From NCBI GenBank assembly GCA_032595685.2, contig CP159373.1:4751821-4815820 (forward strand): a stretch of 64,000 nt of DNA. The letters run 5' to 3'. The position numbers were made by a program, and so were the translations under genes. A model generated the notes under the pieces. It had not been told where the DNA came from. It worked only from the letters and a program-made list of their open reading frames with translations, and made no database searches. Shown here piece after piece: positions 38,503-46,551 of the stretch. Positions within the stretch are counted from its first letter, which is position 1. Each line of letters opens with the position of its first letter. The stretch is from Candidatus Electrothrix aestuarii (GTDB taxonomy: Bacteria > Desulfobacterota > Desulfobulbia > Desulfobulbales > Desulfobulbaceae).

Positions 38503-41500
38503 ATGCCAGCAACAGGACAATTCCGCTTCTCCATAGACCGGGGCGGCACCTTCACCGATGTCTACGCCGAGGTACCGGGCAAACCCGGCTTCCGCACCAT
38601 CAAGCTGCTCTCCGAAGACCCGGCCAATTACCCGGATGCGCCCCGCGAGGGTATCCGCCGCATTCTGGCCGAGTTCGGTATTCCCCTGCAAAACGGCCTA
38701 TTGGACAGCTCCCGCATCGAGTGGATTCGCATGGGCACCACGGTTGCCACCAATGCCCTGCTGGAGCGCAAAGGTGCCCGCACCGCCCTGATCACCACCA
38801 GGGGCTTCGGCGATATTCTCCAGATCGGCTATCAGGATCGGCCCGACCTCTTTGATCTCAGGATCGTCAAGCCCGACCTCTTATACGAGGAGGTCATTGA
38901 GGTGGAGGAACGCCTGCTGCTCGTCAAGGATGACCGTGAAGCAGCCCGGCAGGAGAGCTTAGGGCATCCCTTGCTCACCGGCAGCACGGGCGAGCGTTTT
39001 GCCGTGCTGGCTGCCCCGGATATTGAGGCCCTGCAACCCCGCTTGCAGGCCATCCTGGACCAGGGCATCAGCTCAGTGGCCGTGGTCTTTGCCCATGCCT
39101 ACAGTTGCCCGCAACACGAGGAGCAGGTCGGCGGACTGGCCCGCCGGCTGGGCTTTGCGCAAGTCTCCCTCTCCTCTCAGGTCATGCCCGCAGTCAGGCT
39201 GGTTTCGCGCGGAGACACCACCTTGGTGGATGCCTATCTCACCCCGCATATCCGCGCCTATCTGGACAGCTTTCGCTCCGGATTCGCTGGCGGATTGGCG
39301 GATAACAAGCTCCTGTTTATGCAGTCCGACGGCGGTCTGGCCCAGGCTGACAACTTTACCGGGTCACGGGCCGTGCTCTCCGGGCCTGCGGGCGGGGTGA
39401 TAGGCTATGGCCGGGGTGTCTGGAATCCAGCAACAAAGGAGCCGGTCATCGGTTTTGACATGGGCGGCACGTCCACGGATGTGTCCCGCTTTGCCGGAGA
39501 ACCCGAGCTGACCTTTGCCAACTGCACTGCCGGGGTGCGTATCCATGCCCCGCAGCTGGATATCCGCACCGTGGCAGCAGGCGGTGGCTCGCGTCTCTTC
39601 TTTGACAACGGGATGTTCCGGGTCGGGCCGGAGTCGGCAGGTGCCCATCCCGGCCCGATCTGTTACCGCAAGGGCGGCTCTCTGACCGTGACCGATGCCA
39701 ACCTGGTGCTCGGTCGTCTGCAACCGGAATACTTCCCCTGCATCTTCGGCCCTGACGAGGATCAGCCCCTGGATAAGGAAGCGGCCTGCAATGCCTTTGC
39801 CGAGCTGACCACAGAAATCAACGCCTCGTATCAGGAGCAGGGACATGCCCCTCTTTCCGTGCAGGAAGTAGCCCTGGGCTTTGTCCGGGTGGCGGATGAG
39901 GTCATGGTGCGTCCTATCCGGGAGATTTCAGTGATGCGGGGATTCGATATCCGCGAGCATGTCCTGGCCGTGTTCGGGGGAGCCGGGGCCCAACATGCCT
40001 GTTCCGTGGCCCGCATCCTGGGGATTCGTAAAGTGGTGGTGCATCGTTTTTCCGGCATCCTCTCGGCCTGCGGCATGGGCATGGCCGATACCACGGTGGA
40101 TCGACGGCAACCCGCTGCTGCCGAGTTAGGGTCGAAGTCCTTGCAGACTATGCGGGACGAGCTTGCCCGCCTCCGGGCCGCTACCGAACAGGAGCTGTTG
40201 GATCAGGGGATTCCCCGAGAACGGATCAGCAGCCAATGCTTCCTTAATCTGCGCTATGCAGGCACGGACACCGCCCTGATGATTGAGGAACCGGAACACG
40301 GTGATTATGGCGCAGCCTTCCAAGCCGCCTATCAGCGGGAATTCGGTTTTACCCTCCGGGATCGTGCGGTGCTGATTGATGATTGCAGGGTGCGTTCCGC
40401 CGGGCAGGCAGGCAGGGTGGAGAAGCAGCCCATCGCCCAAGCTGAAGAACCTCCCAAGCAGCAGGCTCGGGTGCGGGTATGGTTTACAGAGGGAGAGCGG
40501 GACACGCCTCTGTATAGAATGGATACCCTGCTGGCCGGACATGCAATTCCCGGTCCGGCCATCCTGATTCAGGATACCGCCACCATTGTGGTGGAGCCGG
40601 ATTGTACGGCCCGTATCAGCAGCTACGGGGATGTGGAGATTGAGGTGGGCCGCAGGCAGCAGGAGGCCGTCAGTACGGTACTTGATCCGGTGCGGCTCTC
40701 GGTCTTTGCCAATCTGTTCATGTCCATTGCCGAACAGATGGGCCGGATGCTGCAAAAGACAGCGGTGTCCACCAATATCCGGGAACGGCTGGATTTCTCC
40801 TGCGCCCTGTTCGATACCGCAGGGCAGCTGGTCGCCAATGCCCCTCATGTCCCGGTGCATCTCGGTGCCATGAGCGAGGCCGTACAGGAGCAGATCCGGC
40901 GGTGCCCGGACCTGCAACCCGGTGACGTGCTGGTCAGTAATCATCCGGCAGCCGGGGGCAGTCATCTGCCGGACATCACGGTCATCACCCCGGTCTTTGC
41001 CCAGGATACGGAAAAGATCATCTTCTGGGTAGCAAGCCGGGGGCACCATGCCGATATAGGCGGCATCTCGCCCGGTTCCATGCCGCCCCATTCCCGTCTC
41101 CTGAGCGAGGAAGGGGCAGCTATAGAGTCGTTCCGCCTAGTACAAGGCGGGGTCTTTCAGGAAGAAGGTATCTCGAAACTCCTGCTCAAGAGTACAGGGC
41201 CGGGATGCAGCGGCACCCGCAGGTTGGCCGATAATATCTCTGATCTGCGAGCCCAGGTTGCGGCCAATCAAAAGGGCATTGATCTGATTCTGGGCATGGT
41301 GAAAGATTATAGCCTGGAAGCAGTGCAAGCCTATATGGGGCATGTTCAGGATGCAGCTGAAGCGGCGGTGCGTAGGGCATTGTGCCAACTTTCCCTGAGC
41401 CAAGGCATGACTGAACAGGATACGGTGGAGGCAGTGGATTATCTGGATGACGGCAGCCCGATCCGCCTTCGCCTGAGCATCGACCGAAAGGACGGTTCTG

Positions 41501-42249
41501 CTGTCTTTGATTTCAGCGGCACCGGCCCGGAGCTTTGGGGCAATCTGAATGCACCAAAGGCCGTGACCCGCTCTGCCCTCCTCTACAGCCTGCGTTGTCT
41601 GGTGGAAAAGGATATCCCGCTCAACCACGGCTGCCTGCTCCCGGTCCGCCTGATCATCCCTCCCGGCTCCCTGCTTGATCCATCCCCCGAGGCCGGAGTG
41701 GTGGGCGGCAATGTGCTCACCTCTCAGCGGGTGGTGGATGTGGCGCTCAAAGCCTTTGGCGTGGCAGCGGCTTCTCAGGGTTGTATGAACAACCTCTGCT
41801 TCGGCAATGAAGACTTCGGCTATTACGAAACCATCGGCGGCGGGGCCGGGGCCGGACCAAGCTGGCACGGTCAATCCGGCGTTCACACCCACATGACCAA
41901 TACCCGGATCACGGATCCAGAGATTCTGGAACGACGCTACCCGGTGCTGGTGCGGGAGTTTTCCCTGCGTCGGGGTTCCGGGGGAACAGGAACATTCCGG
42001 GGAGGCGATGGATTAATTCGGGAACTGGAGTTCCTGGAACCCTTGCAGGTCTCCATCCTCTCGGAACGCAGGGTCTTTGCGCCCTACGGGCTGAACGGCG
42101 GCGGGGATGGAATGCGGGGCGAGAATATCTTTATCCGCAGCAACGGTAGGAGGTTGAATCTCGGCGGGAAGAATACGATTCAGGCCGAGGCCGGGGATCG
42201 GTTGCGGATATGTACGCCCGGCGGGGGTGGGTGGGGAGAAAATGAATGA
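38503..42249 (+). CDS. oplA: 5-Oxoprolinase (HyuA-HyuB fusion)
   Basis: The 1248-residue protein joins a HyuA-type half ([14 protein letters not shown] near residue 10, [13 protein letters not shown] near 314) to a HyuB-type half from about 720 ([32 protein letters not shown]). ATP-dependent 5-oxoprolinases have exactly this layout and length. It opens 5-oxoproline to glutamate, consistent with the gamma-glutamylcyclotransferase at 28704. The 3' end ([20 protein letters not shown]) recurs as a second copy at 46339. Confidence 0.88.
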
Positions 42250-42314
42250 AGAGATGCCACTGCCATCCTTCTATATAGCATTGAAGAATAACGGAAGCAT
42301 CTCCTTCCTGTGAC

Positions 42315-43756
42315 GTCAGCAATTATAAATTTGACAACGTACTATTTTATTTAACGAATATGTGTTATTGAAAGGCATGATCAATATCACACGAGTCCTC
42401 TGCTTATGCCTTCAAATACCAAAGAATTAACATTCGATACGTTTGTCAATCAGATCCATAGCATATTTGATGAACTCCCGGATTACCGGAAATTCAGCCC
42501 AAACCTCACATATTCAATGAAGGATGCGGCGTTAGGTGCGTTTTCCATGTTTTTCAACCAATCCCCATCATTCTTATCTCATCAGCGGGCAATGCAGCAG
42601 GCTCACGGGCATAATAATGCTCAAAGTTTGTTCGGAATAACACAGATCATGTCGGACAATCAGACCCGCAATCTTCTTGACACCCTTACTTCTGATAATT
42701 TTTATCCAATTTTTTCAGAAACTTTTGATCGGCTTGAAAGTGCTGGACACTTGGATCGTTATAGAGTGCTGGATGAATATTTGTTGGTTCCGATAGATGG
42801 TACAGAATTTTTTCGTTCCTCCAAAATACATTGTGAAAACTGTTCCGTTGCTCGTAACTCCAACGGAACGGTAAGTTATTCCCATAAGGTTCTTACCCCG
42901 GTGGTAGCTGCACCGGACAACAACAAGGTCATCGCTCTGGAACCAGAATTCGTCACCCCTCAGGATGGTTCAGCAAAACAGGATTGCGAGTTGAATGCTG
43001 CTAAGCGCTGGATTGAACGGAACTCTTCTTTATCGGCTCGAAAAGTTATCATCCTGGGAGACGATTTGTTTTCCAGAGGGCCGTTTTGCAACTTATTATC
43101 GGCACACAGTTTTCGTTTTATCCTGATTTGCAAACCCTCCTCACATACGACCCTTTATCAGTATGTTGCCGAACTTGAAAAGAAAGATGGTATTACAGTA
43201 AGTTCTCAAAGAAAATGGAACGGAAAATTTCACGAGCTTCATACTTATCGTTATGCTAATGACTTACCCCTCAAGCAGGGGGATGACGCTCCTTCTGTCA
43301 ATTGGGTTGAGTTGACCGTCATTAACACCAAAACACAAGAGGTTCTGTATAAAAATTCTTTTATCACTGATTTTAAAATAGACAGAACCAATGTTCAATC
43401 TATAGTACAAGCCGGAAGAACTCGATGGAAGGTGGAAAATGAAAATAATAATATCCTGAAAACAAAAGGCTACCATTTAGAGCATAATTTCGGGCATGGC
43501 AATAAATTTCTCTCGAACACCTTACTGACTCTCAATCTGGTCGCATTTTTAGCTCACACATTCCTGGAGCTTGTTGATACAAAATACAAAGCCGTCAGAT
43601 CGGTCTTGTCTGTCCGAAAGACCTTTTTAATGACCTGAAAGCATTAACCAGATATTTATTTTTTAACAGTTGGTCTCAGCTGATAGACTTTATGTTTAAA
43701 CAGCTTGAAATTAAAAATCTATCGACCTGATAATATTAAAATTTAAAATTACTGCC
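42315..43756 (+). mobile_element. ISNCY/IS4-like DDE insertion sequence
   Basis: Imperfect 18-bp terminal repeats match at 15 positions: the left end reads GTCAGCAATTATAAATTT and the right end, reversed, reads GGCAGTAATTTTAAATTT. TGTGAC flanks both sides (42309-42314 and 43757-43762) as a 6-bp target duplication. One transposase gene fills the element. It lies at the left edge of the island behind oplA. Confidence 0.8.
42406..43730 (+). pseudogene. DDE transposase with C-terminal -1 frameshift
   Basis: The 0 frame gives 410 residues with SYSHKVLTPVV, an acidic DGTEFF, ILGDDLFSR, and a stop at 43638. The next frame continues naturally with NDLKALTRYLFFNSWSQL to a TGA at 43728-43730. The break is at a run of five T (ACCTTTTTAATG). 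This is either one lost T or a programmed -1 slip. The family is an IS4-like/ISNCY DDE transposase. The catalytic core is intact, so activity depends on the frameshift. Confidence 0.65.
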
Positions 43757-43763
43757 TGTGACG

Positions 43764-43970
43764 TTATCTTGTATGGCAAGCTGTAGAACAATGACGGCAC
43801 CCATCCGCTTTGGGATAATATTTCCGTGCCTCTGCTACAGCACCATGACAACGGCTGAATTGACCGAGATAACGCCGATTCGCTTCACTTGGCAGCCAAG
43901 CACATGTTGAGGTGTGAACCTCATGGTCGCCATTTGCCTGAGCCTGTTTATTAACGTAATACGTTTCCAT
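43764..43970 (-). CDS. Small Cys/His-rich hypothetical protein, 68 aa
   Basis: The ORF is reduced to the internal start METYYVNKQAQ at 43970. It has HTSTCAWLPSEANRRYLG and ends GCRHCSTACHTR. The cysteine-histidine spacing may bind zinc. It is downstream of the DUF2188 gene and directly beside the IS right end. No function is known. Confidence 0.6.
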   Translation of the reverse strand: METYYVNKQAQANGDHEVHTSTCAWLPSEANRRYLGQFSRCHGAVAEARKYYPKADGCRHCSTACHTR

Positions 43971-43999
43971 GCTTTTTACTCCCTGTAACTTAATCGGTA

Positions 44000-44230
44000 T
44001 TAATGTTTGGTATCCCGAGGCGGACAACTATCATTTCCGTAACTGTCCTTGTCTCTAATCTGTCCGTTCGGACGATGAATAACGACTTCACTCCGTTGAT
44101 TTCGAGCGATATTCCGTGCAGAATTAATTGCGTCCGCCTGTGTGGAATGTTGTGAGGTCACTCTCTCGTTATTGGCACCTCTGACAGCCCATCCATCTTT
44201 GTGTGGTACTACATGCTGATTTTTACCCAT
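44000..44230 (-). CDS. DUF2188 domain protein
   Basis: The start is set at the ATG at 44230. The 76 residues include NQHVVPHKDGWAVRGANN and HRPNGQIRDKDSYGNDSCPP, the DUF2188 pattern. This small domain is often found on mobile DNA; its role is unknown. It pairs with the Cys/His-rich gene downstream. The 44237-44493 gap is AT-rich with no gene. Confidence 0.75.
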   Translation of the reverse strand: MGKNQHVVPHKDGWAVRGANNERVTSQHSTQADAINSARNIARNQRSEVVIHRPNGQIRDKDSYGNDSCPPRDTKH

Positions 44231-44493
44231 CTTCAATCTCTTTGGTTGATATTAGTTTTTGCAGATCGTTCCGCTCCTGCATAGTAATGCCGACAAGTAC
44301 CATTTTTTTGCCAAACAAAGAAAAAAAATGGCAAGATTAAGATTGTGATCGGCATAATGTAATAGGACAGGATAATTTTTTGGTTGCTGTTGGGTTAATC
44401 AGCGTTAGAAATAGGGTAACTGTTCTTTCTGTAGAAATATAACGATAGAAACGAGAGCAAAAATAATAAACTTAATATTAGCAGGTAAATATA

Positions 44494-45129
44494 TTGAAAA
44501 TCGACAATAAATACGACCTATCCGTCCGGGAAGAACTGGACAAAGTGAATTGGGATTCCGTGCTTCCAAAAGTGCTTAAATGCGCTATTCAAGTTTCAAG
44601 AAAATTTTTTTGGCTCGGATATAAAGTTAATCCTGAAGATCTTGTTTCTGAAGCGATAGCTCGGGCATATGGGGTAGGCACAGGTGGAACATATCGAAAT
44701 TGGAATAAAAAATCTTGCCCTGATATTGCTAAATTTTTAAATGACATCATAAAAAGCATGAGCAGTCATACAGCCGAGCACGAGGCAAAATTTGCTGAGG
44801 AGAGTATCTTTTCGGAAGATGGCTATCTTAAAAATAATAAGTTGTTTGCGATAGTCGATACAATTGCCGGATATTGCAGACCAAAAACTCCAGAAGAAAA
44901 ATTTATTGAGACGGATAATCTTCAGAAACTTGTGAACGTTTTAGACAAATTAGAAAATGAAAATGAAGATCTTGGAATGGTTATTTTATGCATTAAAGAA
45001 GGGATCAGTGAACCAAGATATATTGCGCAAGAGACAGGTTTTGACGTTAGCAAGGTTTACAATTTATTAAAAAAACTTCGTAGGAAACTTAAAGATTTTG
45101 ATCCGAAAAAACAAAAAGCACTCTGTTGA
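44494..45129 (+). CDS. Sigma-70-like (ECF-type) RNA polymerase sigma factor
   Basis: The 211-residue protein has a region-2-like segment (NPEDLVSEAIARAYGVG), a short linker, and a C-terminal region-4-like helix-turn-helix (PRYIAQETGFDVSKVYNLLK). It is AT-rich compared with oplA. The TTG start is supported by AGGT 8 nt upstream. It is the first gene of a three-gene operon with a small helical protein and an ImmA/IrrE protease. The -35 reading by region 4 is inferred from the fold only. Confidence 0.7.
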   Translation: MKIDNKYDLSVREELDKVNWDSVLPKVLKCAIQVSRKFFWLGYKVNPEDLVSEAIARAYGVGTGGTYRNWNKKSCPDIAKFLNDIIKSMSSHTAEHEAKFAEESIFSEDGYLKNNKLFAIVDTIAGYCRPKTPEEKFIETDNLQKLVNVLDKLENENEDLGMVILCIKEGISEPRYIAQETGFDVSKVYNLLKKLRRKLKDFDPKKQKALC

Positions 45130-45138
45130 GGGAAAAAT

Positions 45139-45567
45139 ATGAGTAATAAGAAGAGAGAGCATTTAAAAATTTTGGATACTCTCACTGATGCGTTAGGAAG
45201 GAGCGAAGGAGAATCCGCCGAAGAAATTAAAGAAGAGCTTCGGAATGACGGAATAGATGTTGATGGCATCCTAACTCGCTTAAAAGACGCTCAAAAAAAT
45301 ATCTCAATGGAGGCTAAGAGATCTGCGTTAGATAGAGCGAGAGAAAAGAGGCTTAATTCCAATCAAAGAAGTTTTAATATTATTGGACAATTTAGCAATT
45401 GGACAAAAGAGCAGCTCATCAAAAGGATAAGTGAGATAGGAGCAGCCGAGGCAAGGTTCGCTTACAGAGATTTAGAAAATATGAGTCCAGAGAACCTGGC
45501 TTCAATTTTAGAAGACCTAGAAACCATCAACACGAATAATCCCCAAGAAGATGAGAGCCATCAATAA
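45139..45567 (+). CDS. Small helical protein between sigma factor and ImmA/IrrE
   Basis: The 142-residue protein is charged and largely helical, with EEIKEELRNDGIDVDGILTR near the N-terminus. GAGGG lies 6 nt before the ATG, which is 9 bp after the sigma-like stop. The end overlaps the protease start by 17 bp. It has no catalytic motif. It could be an anti-sigma or substrate of the protease, but that is inference from position. Confidence 0.65.
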   Translation: MSNKKREHLKILDTLTDALGRSEGESAEEIKEELRNDGIDVDGILTRLKDAQKNISMEAKRSALDRAREKRLNSNQRSFNIIGQFSNWTKEQLIKRISEIGAAEARFAYRDLENMSPENLASILEDLETINTNNPQEDESHQ

Positions 45568-46330
45568 AATTGATTTCAAACTTCTGGAAGCTGAACATGC
45601 GGCACACCGGGTTATTGACGAGTTCGGGATTTGTTCCCCGGAACATATCCGGGTTCGCGATATTGCTGTTGCCAAAGGAGCAACAGTAATTGAAAAGCCT
45701 GTTCCCGGAGCTGCTGCAAGCCTTGTGACTTTGGGAGAACAGGCCGTTGTCAGCGTTTCCCCCGAAGGTAATGAAGCACGAAAACGATTCAGCATTGCTC
45801 ATGAATTGGGACATCTCGTTATGAATCATGTCGCATCAATTCAAAAAATATGCACCGATGAGGATATGCTGAACTGGTACCAAAGCAGCTTGGAGACACA
45901 AGCTAATTTTTTTGCAAGTGAGCTAATTCTTCCAGCTCAATTGGTTGCACCTTACAGTGATACCGGGGAGGTCAGTTTTGACCTTATAAAGGAAATTGCT
46001 AAAAAATTCAGGGCGTCATTAACAGCAACGGCAATAAAATTTGTCAGGCTTTGCCCGGAACCATGCGCAGTCGTTTATTCAACCAACGGAGTGATTAAAT
46101 GGAGTTATAAAAGTAGTGAGTGGTGGCCTTTCATAAGATCGGGACAACAGCTTGACGAACGAACTTTAGCCCATGACTTCTTTGCAGGTCACGATATGGA
46201 TTCGGAAGCTCAAGAGATTGATGCTGATGCTTGGGTTGAAGACATGAAGCTGCATGAAGTCGTTGAACATTCTGTCGGATCATCGCAGTATGGCTTTGTG
46301 CTTTCGCTTCTTTGGATCAAGCCGGAATAA
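45551..46330 (+). CDS. ImmA/IrrE-family metallopeptidase
   Basis: The 259-residue protein has RFSIAHELGHLVMNH, the HExxH zinc motif, and the following ETQANFFASELILPA, the third-ligand helix, both diagnostic for ImmA/IrrE. These proteases cleave repressors or regulators in response to DNA damage or phage. The start overlaps the 142-aa gene by 17 bp. The stop lies 8 bp before the duplicated oplA tail. Confidence 0.88.
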   Translation: MRAINKIDFKLLEAEHAAHRVIDEFGICSPEHIRVRDIAVAKGATVIEKPVPGAAASLVTLGEQAVVSVSPEGNEARKRFSIAHELGHLVMNHVASIQKICTDEDMLNWYQSSLETQANFFASELILPAQLVAPYSDTGEVSFDLIKEIAKKFRASLTATAIKFVRLCPEPCAVVYSTNGVIKWSYKSSEWWPFIRSGQQLDERTLAHDFFAGHDMDSEAQEIDADAWVEDMKLHEVVEHSVGSSQYGFVLSLLWIKPE

Positions 46331-46338
46331 AAAGCATT

Positions 46339-46432
46339 GAAGCTCGGCGTCAAGAATACAATTCAGGCTGAGGCTGGAGATCGGTTGCGGATTTGTACGC
46401 CTGGTGGGGGTGGATGGGGTAAGAAAAAGTGA
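46339..46432 (+). pseudogene. Duplicated 3' end of oplA
   Basis: The fragment translates as [20 protein letters not shown] plus GGGGWGKKK and a TGA stop, matching the real oplA tail ([20 protein letters not shown]). DNA identity over about 75 bp is high but not perfect. It marks the far edge of the inserted island. Confidence 0.88.
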
Positions 46433-46551
46433 ACATCGGGATGGGCTCTGTTCAGTAGCCTGGATAAATGGGTTTTTGCTTTATGTACATTGACTGTTTC
46501 CATTCTTGTTCCTCCGGTTATTTTCTAAAAAAATCCCCCTCTGGCTGCGGA

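Follow-up and report, generated by a model that had tools for sequence, protein, structure and literature searches.

The CapH+CapP controllers of immune operons comprise an HTH repressor, CapH, and the peptidase CapP that cuts it; the gene of the substrate precedes capP, and the pair lies divergently beside CBASS, Bub and DUF2188/TIR operons, which are switched on by derepression. According to work cited in PMC13373217, CapP is activated by ssDNA. ImmA/IrrE-type peptidases also cut a regulator upon DNA damage in ImmR/ImmA and DdrO/PprI(IrrE), where the regulators are HTH repressors and no sigma factor is encoded alongside. In DdrO, residue R118 of the cleavage loop is needed for ssDNA-stimulated cleavage by PprI (PMC10904395). 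CapW/BrxR and CapK+CapS are modular DNA-damage controllers found beside interchangeable immune operons (PMC13373217), and act through a WYL repressor, or a kinase and a STAS repressor, with neither proteolysis nor a sigma factor. Finally, in type III CRISPR the protease CalpL, a Lon-SAVED protein activated by cA4, releases CalpS by cleaving its anti-sigma, CalpT (PMC12751052).

Here we describe three adjacent genes, the trio, in a 64,000-nt stretch of Candidatus Electrothrix aestuarii contig CP159373.1 (the window). The trio shares with CapH+CapP the CapP peptidase family, the order of the (here proposed) substrate gene and capP, and the divergent position beside the same operon types; the protein encoded upstream of capP may also have a similar C-terminal tail. 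Unlike CapH+CapP, it has no HTH repressor and encodes a sigma factor and a helical protein of about 140 aa instead; its CapPs fall on a separate branch, and it would exert positive control through dedicated promoters rather than derepression. By analogy, its nearest logical parallel is CalpL/T/S, which belongs to different protein families and shares the sigma, anti-sigma and signal-activated protease logic in immunity that we propose for the trio from its genes. The trio protease is of the M78/CapP type, profile searches with the trio families reported no CalpT or CalpS relative, and the annotated genes read around the trio include none of type III CRISPR. The sequence-only reading of this DNA did not recognise the trio as a described system. 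Our literature searches found no published description; an earlier mention in papers beyond their scope, namely Lau et al. 2022 on CapH/CapP or Gong et al. 2025 and Ye et al. 2026 on Bub, is possible.

Organization of the locus

The three ORFs of the trio are on the same strand and intact, and the catalytic motif is kept (Table 1). The tight coupling noticed in the sequence-only reading holds as stated, with a gap of 9 bp between the sigma and 142-aa genes and an overlap of 17 bp between the 142-aa and CapP genes. The AT-rich composition is confirmed as well (GC 0.38-0.41, vs about 0.50 in the neighbourhood), and the proposed island is delimited by two copies of a 97-nt direct repeat, between which the trio block lies. 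The hydantoinase/oxoprolinase-like gene that ends in the left copy (38503-42249) has about 60% GC in a region of roughly 50% GC, and short copies resembling its 3' end are present at several places in the genus. Beside the island, an IS4-like transposase (42406-43638) has about 19 full or partial matches in this genome. The window copy is 410 aa long with a different C-terminus, its similarity to longer copies stopping at residue 408.

Table 1. Features of the trio locus in the window (window positions) and arrangement of related loci (locus identifiers).
Feature	Position or loci	Strand	Remarks
Left island-flanking repeat	42154-42250	+	97 nt, reference copy; 3' end of hydantoinase/oxoprolinase-like gene
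DUF2188 operon	43764-44236	-	divergent from trio
Small Cys-rich protein, second gene of divergent operon	43764-44027	-	87-aa ORF; homologues on 24 plasmids
DUF2188 protein, proposed switch target	44000-44236	-	78 aa; Pfam DUF2188 E=9e-25; PADLOC PDC-S16 E=4e-37 (defence candidate)
Promoter-like element for DUF2188 operon	44285-44313	-	TGGCAAA-N16-GCATTA, exact match
Promoter-like element for trio	44329-44357	+	TGGCAAG-N16-GCATAA, exact match
ECF-type sigma factor gene	44494-45129	+	211 aa, TTG start
142-aa helical protein gene	45139-45567	+	proposed anti-sigma and CapP substrate
C-terminal tail of 142-aa protein, residues 105-129	45451-45525	+	includes Arg110; proposed CapP recognition/cleavage region
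CapP-type ImmA/IrrE metallopeptidase gene	45551-46330	+	259 aa
HELGH metal-binding active site of CapP	45800-45814	+	from sequence
Right island-flanking repeat	46337-46433	+	82% identical to left copy
Trio divergent from CBASS	L119, L127, L129, L131
Trio divergent from multiubiquitin (ubiquitin-like) Bub operons	L116, L118, L121, L125, L126
Trio divergent from ThiF/patatin operon	L120
Trio divergent from DUF2188 genes	L113, L114, L132, window
IS21 between trio and DUF2188 gene	L117
Cas2-like gene in divergent position	L030
Neighbours matched to no known defence system	L122, L123, L124, L128, L130, L173

The three proteins

The first protein of the trio matches the sigma70-ECF model TIGR02937 over residues 25 to 201 with an E-value of 3e-6, at a score below the cut-off of that model. 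The model is matched by 16 of the 23 sigma family members (best E=2e-8), with the sigma2 and sigma4 regions covered, and the family profile aligns over both regions with Mycobacterium tuberculosis SigH (PDB 5zx2, E=1.2e-8). Pfam matches of single members are below the curated cut-offs (r2, E=0.002 in L114; r4_2, E=0.009 in L030). Foldseek returned mostly sigma factors, at E-values of 0.1 or worse, and we place no weight on it; both AlphaFold models were built on shallow alignments and are of low confidence (pLDDT 60 and 57). The sequence-only reading had called this gene sigma-70-like, and the profile check of sigma-domain similarity was positive with TIGR02937 and SigH; on these profile matches, the first trio gene is an ECF-type sigma factor. 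No sigma homologue was found in the phage records or viral contigs searched.

The third protein matches Pfam Peptidase_M78 (E=4e-16) and contains HELGH, so that the intact ImmA/IrrE protease previously read from the sequence is borne out. It also matches PADLOC capP over residues 13 to 256 (E=3.3e-63) and the solved CapP structure PDB 7t5t over residues 73 to 256 (E=1e-20), so that the C-terminal sensor region is covered too, and HExxH is intact in all 21 aligned trio CapPs. By sequence, the third trio gene thus encodes CapP, known as the peptidase component of CapH+CapP. In a tree of 35 CapPs, those of the trio form one side of a branch with a support of 91/93, and the labels change once, compared to 11.2 times in shuffles.

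Profile searches assign the 142-aa protein to no family reliably, and none of its Pfam scores exceeds the cut-off. It matches no HTH family, whereas canonical CapHs match several HTH-protein models. A low-confidence AlphaFold model predicts it to be all-helical. The strongest C-terminal feature is a tail Arg (Arg110 in the window), which is Arg in 22 of the 23 aligned members and Lys in the remaining one. The tail of the small family, for example FAYRDLENMSPENLASILEDL, can be set beside that of a canonical CapH, LFRDLSNLSQSDKNQIREMM. When a tail-only HMM was run against 4542 ORFs, the first two matches from outside the family were canonical CapHs (E=0.012 and 0.057). When the small family was compared to canonical CapH by hhalign, the match on the tail was weak (P=0.027) and fell short of proving homology. 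The capH model of PADLOC, which may itself include such proteins, matches 12 of 22 small-family members. These comparisons suggest that the small-family tail resembles that of CapH, and by analogy the tail Arg may correspond to DdrO R118. A 243-aa ORF in another locus (L136 931-1662, G379) has a C-terminal part similar to the helices at the N-terminus of the 142-aa family (E=4.5e-8) but lacks the tail; it is maybe the same inhibitory domain in another setting.

Distribution of the trio

The association of the three genes recurs beyond the window. With the 142-aa protein alone as query, three relatives were found (in G120, G126 and G458), each between a sigma homologue and CapP and none solitary, in line with the partnership proposed in the sequence-only reading. 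Altogether the order of a sigma gene and a gene of about 140 aa was found in 24 loci, the plasmid ones having been reached from CapP matches on plasmids, and CapP was recognised in 22; L121 and L128 have the sigma and small genes without a recognised CapP. The sigma and small genes usually overlap by 4 bp. Profiles built from plasmid members only, searched against 455 ORFs, picked out the window sigma factor (E=2e-12) and 142-aa protein (E=1e-11), and the homology is thus independent of the neighbourhood. As a sole query in species-level genomes, plasmids and viral contigs, P0002 gave nothing or close relatives only. Weak matches in G265 and G374 were rejected as chance similarity in housekeeping genes.

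The trio occurs in Desulfobacterota, in Alpha-, Beta- and Gammaproteobacteria and in Bacteroidota (Pontibacter). Among Desulfobacterota it is rare, with two of 395 sampled genomes, including its own. It is absent from the seven congeners searched, and in G007, a close congener, other DNA occupies this site; the trio is thus probably a recent acquisition.

Neighbouring operons

Across the loci, the divergent neighbour of the trio is usually an immune operon, with CBASS, Bub or DUF2188 genes in most cases (Table 1). The trio also lies beside CBASS on Cereibacter sphaeroides 2.4.1 plasmid pDE (NZ_CP030276.1, L172 4471-6256), where its sigma and small-protein genes are the pair DQL45_RS22335/22330; as this laboratory strain is in wide use, it offers a convenient test system. 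Canonical HTH CapH+CapP occupies the same position beside CBASS in L115, L145, L146 and L147, and in L133 (4201-5756) it is divergent from a DUF2188 gene and a TIR protein gene, which suggests that DUF2188 can be part of TIR-type defence. As canonical CapH+CapP and the trio stand beside the same operon types, the two controller types look exchangeable.

DUF2188 genes are the divergent partner on alpha- and betaproteobacterial plasmids as well as in the window, and we infer that the window DUF2188 operon has a defence function. Its second gene probably begins at an internal Met and would encode about 67 aa. The small Cys-rich protein contains the motif CRHCSTACH and has no family match in profile searches; among its plasmid relatives, Vibrio is the most frequent host. 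A 92-aa Cas2-like protein is found with DUF2188 or alone under the trio (L113 2595-2873, L114 2573-2851, L030 6307-6780), the L030 copy matching cas2 TIGR01573 with an E-value of only 0.01. In two further loci, judged by translations only, the trio is divergent from Tn7-type tnsABC-like genes (L018 10023-17188 in G120; L019 1379-17957 in G126), followed in L019 by a gene for a DndA-like cysteine desulfurase and by Dnd/Dpt-like genes of very large size. The arrangement looks like a transposon carrying defence genes under the guard of the trio.

A paired promoter-like motif

In the intergenic region shared by the trio and the divergent operon, each strand has an outward-directed motif of two blocks. 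Neither this pair nor the DUF2188 operon was noted in the sequence-only reading. The form of the motif is TGTCCGA-N16/17-GCATA in most plasmids and TGGCAA-N16-GCATWA in the window. The window form has exactly two matches in the 5.11-Mb genome, both between these operons and one per strand; a reversed control motif has none in the same genome. In the plasmid records, all exact matches of TGTCCG-N17/18-GCATA but one (W09:48293) fall in trio intergenic regions, and the motif is absent from all seven canonical CapH intergenic regions tested.

For most of 20 loci, at most one of 300 shuffles gave a both-strand match of the TGTCCGA form, and the TGGCAAA form gave none of 300 for the window and L030, counts that overstate independence because the consensus was picked by eye from the same sequences. 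The genome-wide uniqueness is less affected by this choice, as is a mirror test without preset consensus, in which seven loci gave 0 of 200 shuffles and four more at most 6 of 200. Exceptions among the plasmids are L116 and L131, where the TGTCCGA search fails, and L130 and L128, where its signal is weak; the second-strand motif of L018 and L019, toward tnsABC, is weak.

Wherever the motif was found, the two sites of a locus have spacers of the same length, either 16 or 17 nt. The two sites also tend to share -35 letters of their own, such as TGTCCGC in L123, TGTCCGG in L127 and TGGCAA in the window. The -10-like block is close upstream of the start codons in most loci, at about 5-55 nt in most relatives compared to 137 nt upstream of the sigma start in the window trio. 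The gap between the two sites of a locus ranges from 6 to 178 nt, and a single palindromic operator was rejected because of this variation. A constant spacer with a variable gap fits better with two promoters of one sigma factor, and we infer from these sequences that the two sites are promoters read by the trio sigma factor.

A proposed sigma-based switch

The trio very likely controls the adjacent operon by means of a sigma factor dedicated to it. The tail Arg, the CapH-like tail and the duplicated motif favour a protease that cuts the small protein and thereby releases the sigma factor, which supports the interpretation offered in the sequence-only reading, and it is quite likely that the small protein is an inhibitor cut by CapP. 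The 142-aa protein would be made together with the sigma factor and, in the resting state, keep it inactive as an anti-sigma, a role that the coupling of the two genes and the helical prediction would allow. DNA damage or phage replication would then produce ssDNA and activate CapP, ssDNA being the probable trigger by analogy with CapP and PprI. Active CapP would cut the CapH/DdrO-like tail at the C-terminus of the 142-aa protein, close to Arg110, and the freed sigma factor would bring RNA polymerase to the two back-to-back promoters. The trio-side promoter would drive the trio itself, creating a positive feedback, while the other would drive the divergent immune operon, which in the window encodes the DUF2188 and small Cys-rich proteins. 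This switch as a whole, from cleavage of the small protein to the firing of both promoters, has in our judgement a good chance of being correct.

The sigma-like and small proteins could instead form a repressor complex on palindromic operators that CapP cleavage would derepress, with the sigma fold serving only as a DNA-binding platform. In favour of a repressor complex, the small gene stands where capH would, the paired motifs are arranged as nested inverted repeats, and single sigma members score below curated cut-offs. The family profile, however, matches ECF sigma factors over both sigma2 and sigma4, the -10-like block is near start codons in most loci, and an inter-site distance as variable as 6 to 178 nt beside a constant spacer of 16-17 nt fits separate promoters. 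We thus consider a repressor complex unlikely.

It is more doubtful that the small protein assists the sigma factor, as a co-activator or chaperone, and that CapP regulates negatively by turning the system off. A peptidase removes the inhibitor in both CapH/CapP and DdrO/PprI, a protease removes the anti-sigma in Calp, and it would be costly to keep toxic immune operons constitutively on. These points outweigh, in our view, that the sequences leave the sign of the small protein's effect unfixed and that the three genes, probably co-expressed in view of their overlaps, would share the positive feedback.

Three-gene co-occurrence would fit equally well if CapP cut the sigma factor or another host target with the 142-aa protein as an adaptor, but the CapH-like tail with its near-invariant Arg is on the small protein and not on the sigma factor, and the small gene has the CapH position next to capP, which leaves an adaptor role improbable. 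The truncated IS copy, the repeat-flanked island and the absence from seven congeners might suggest an island that is decaying or resembles a toxin-antitoxin system, with coincidental neighbours and a trio that has ceased to regulate anything, a very improbable reading given three intact ORFs with the catalytic motif, the same divergent DUF2188 partner on alpha- and betaproteobacterial plasmids and a motif pair that is exact and unique in the genome.

On the sigma-based switch, we lean towards viewing the trio as an undescribed class of immune controllers triggered by DNA damage, the fourth of its kind. It would be self-amplifying, have its own bidirectional promoter and be interchangeable with CapH+CapP beside CBASS, Bub and DUF2188 operons and even in Tn7-like elements. 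Within this class, the HTH of CapH would be replaced by a sigma-binding domain while the cleaved tail is kept. The finding bears on how toxic immune operons stay silent and then switch on. If the control is sigma-based, it would bring positive feedback and an orthogonal promoter, DNA damage would lead to defence through activation rather than derepression, and the trio would be a compact inducible sigma module. The motif, TGTCCGA-N17-GCATA or TGGCAA-N16-GCATWA, may serve as a handle for finding new defence operons.
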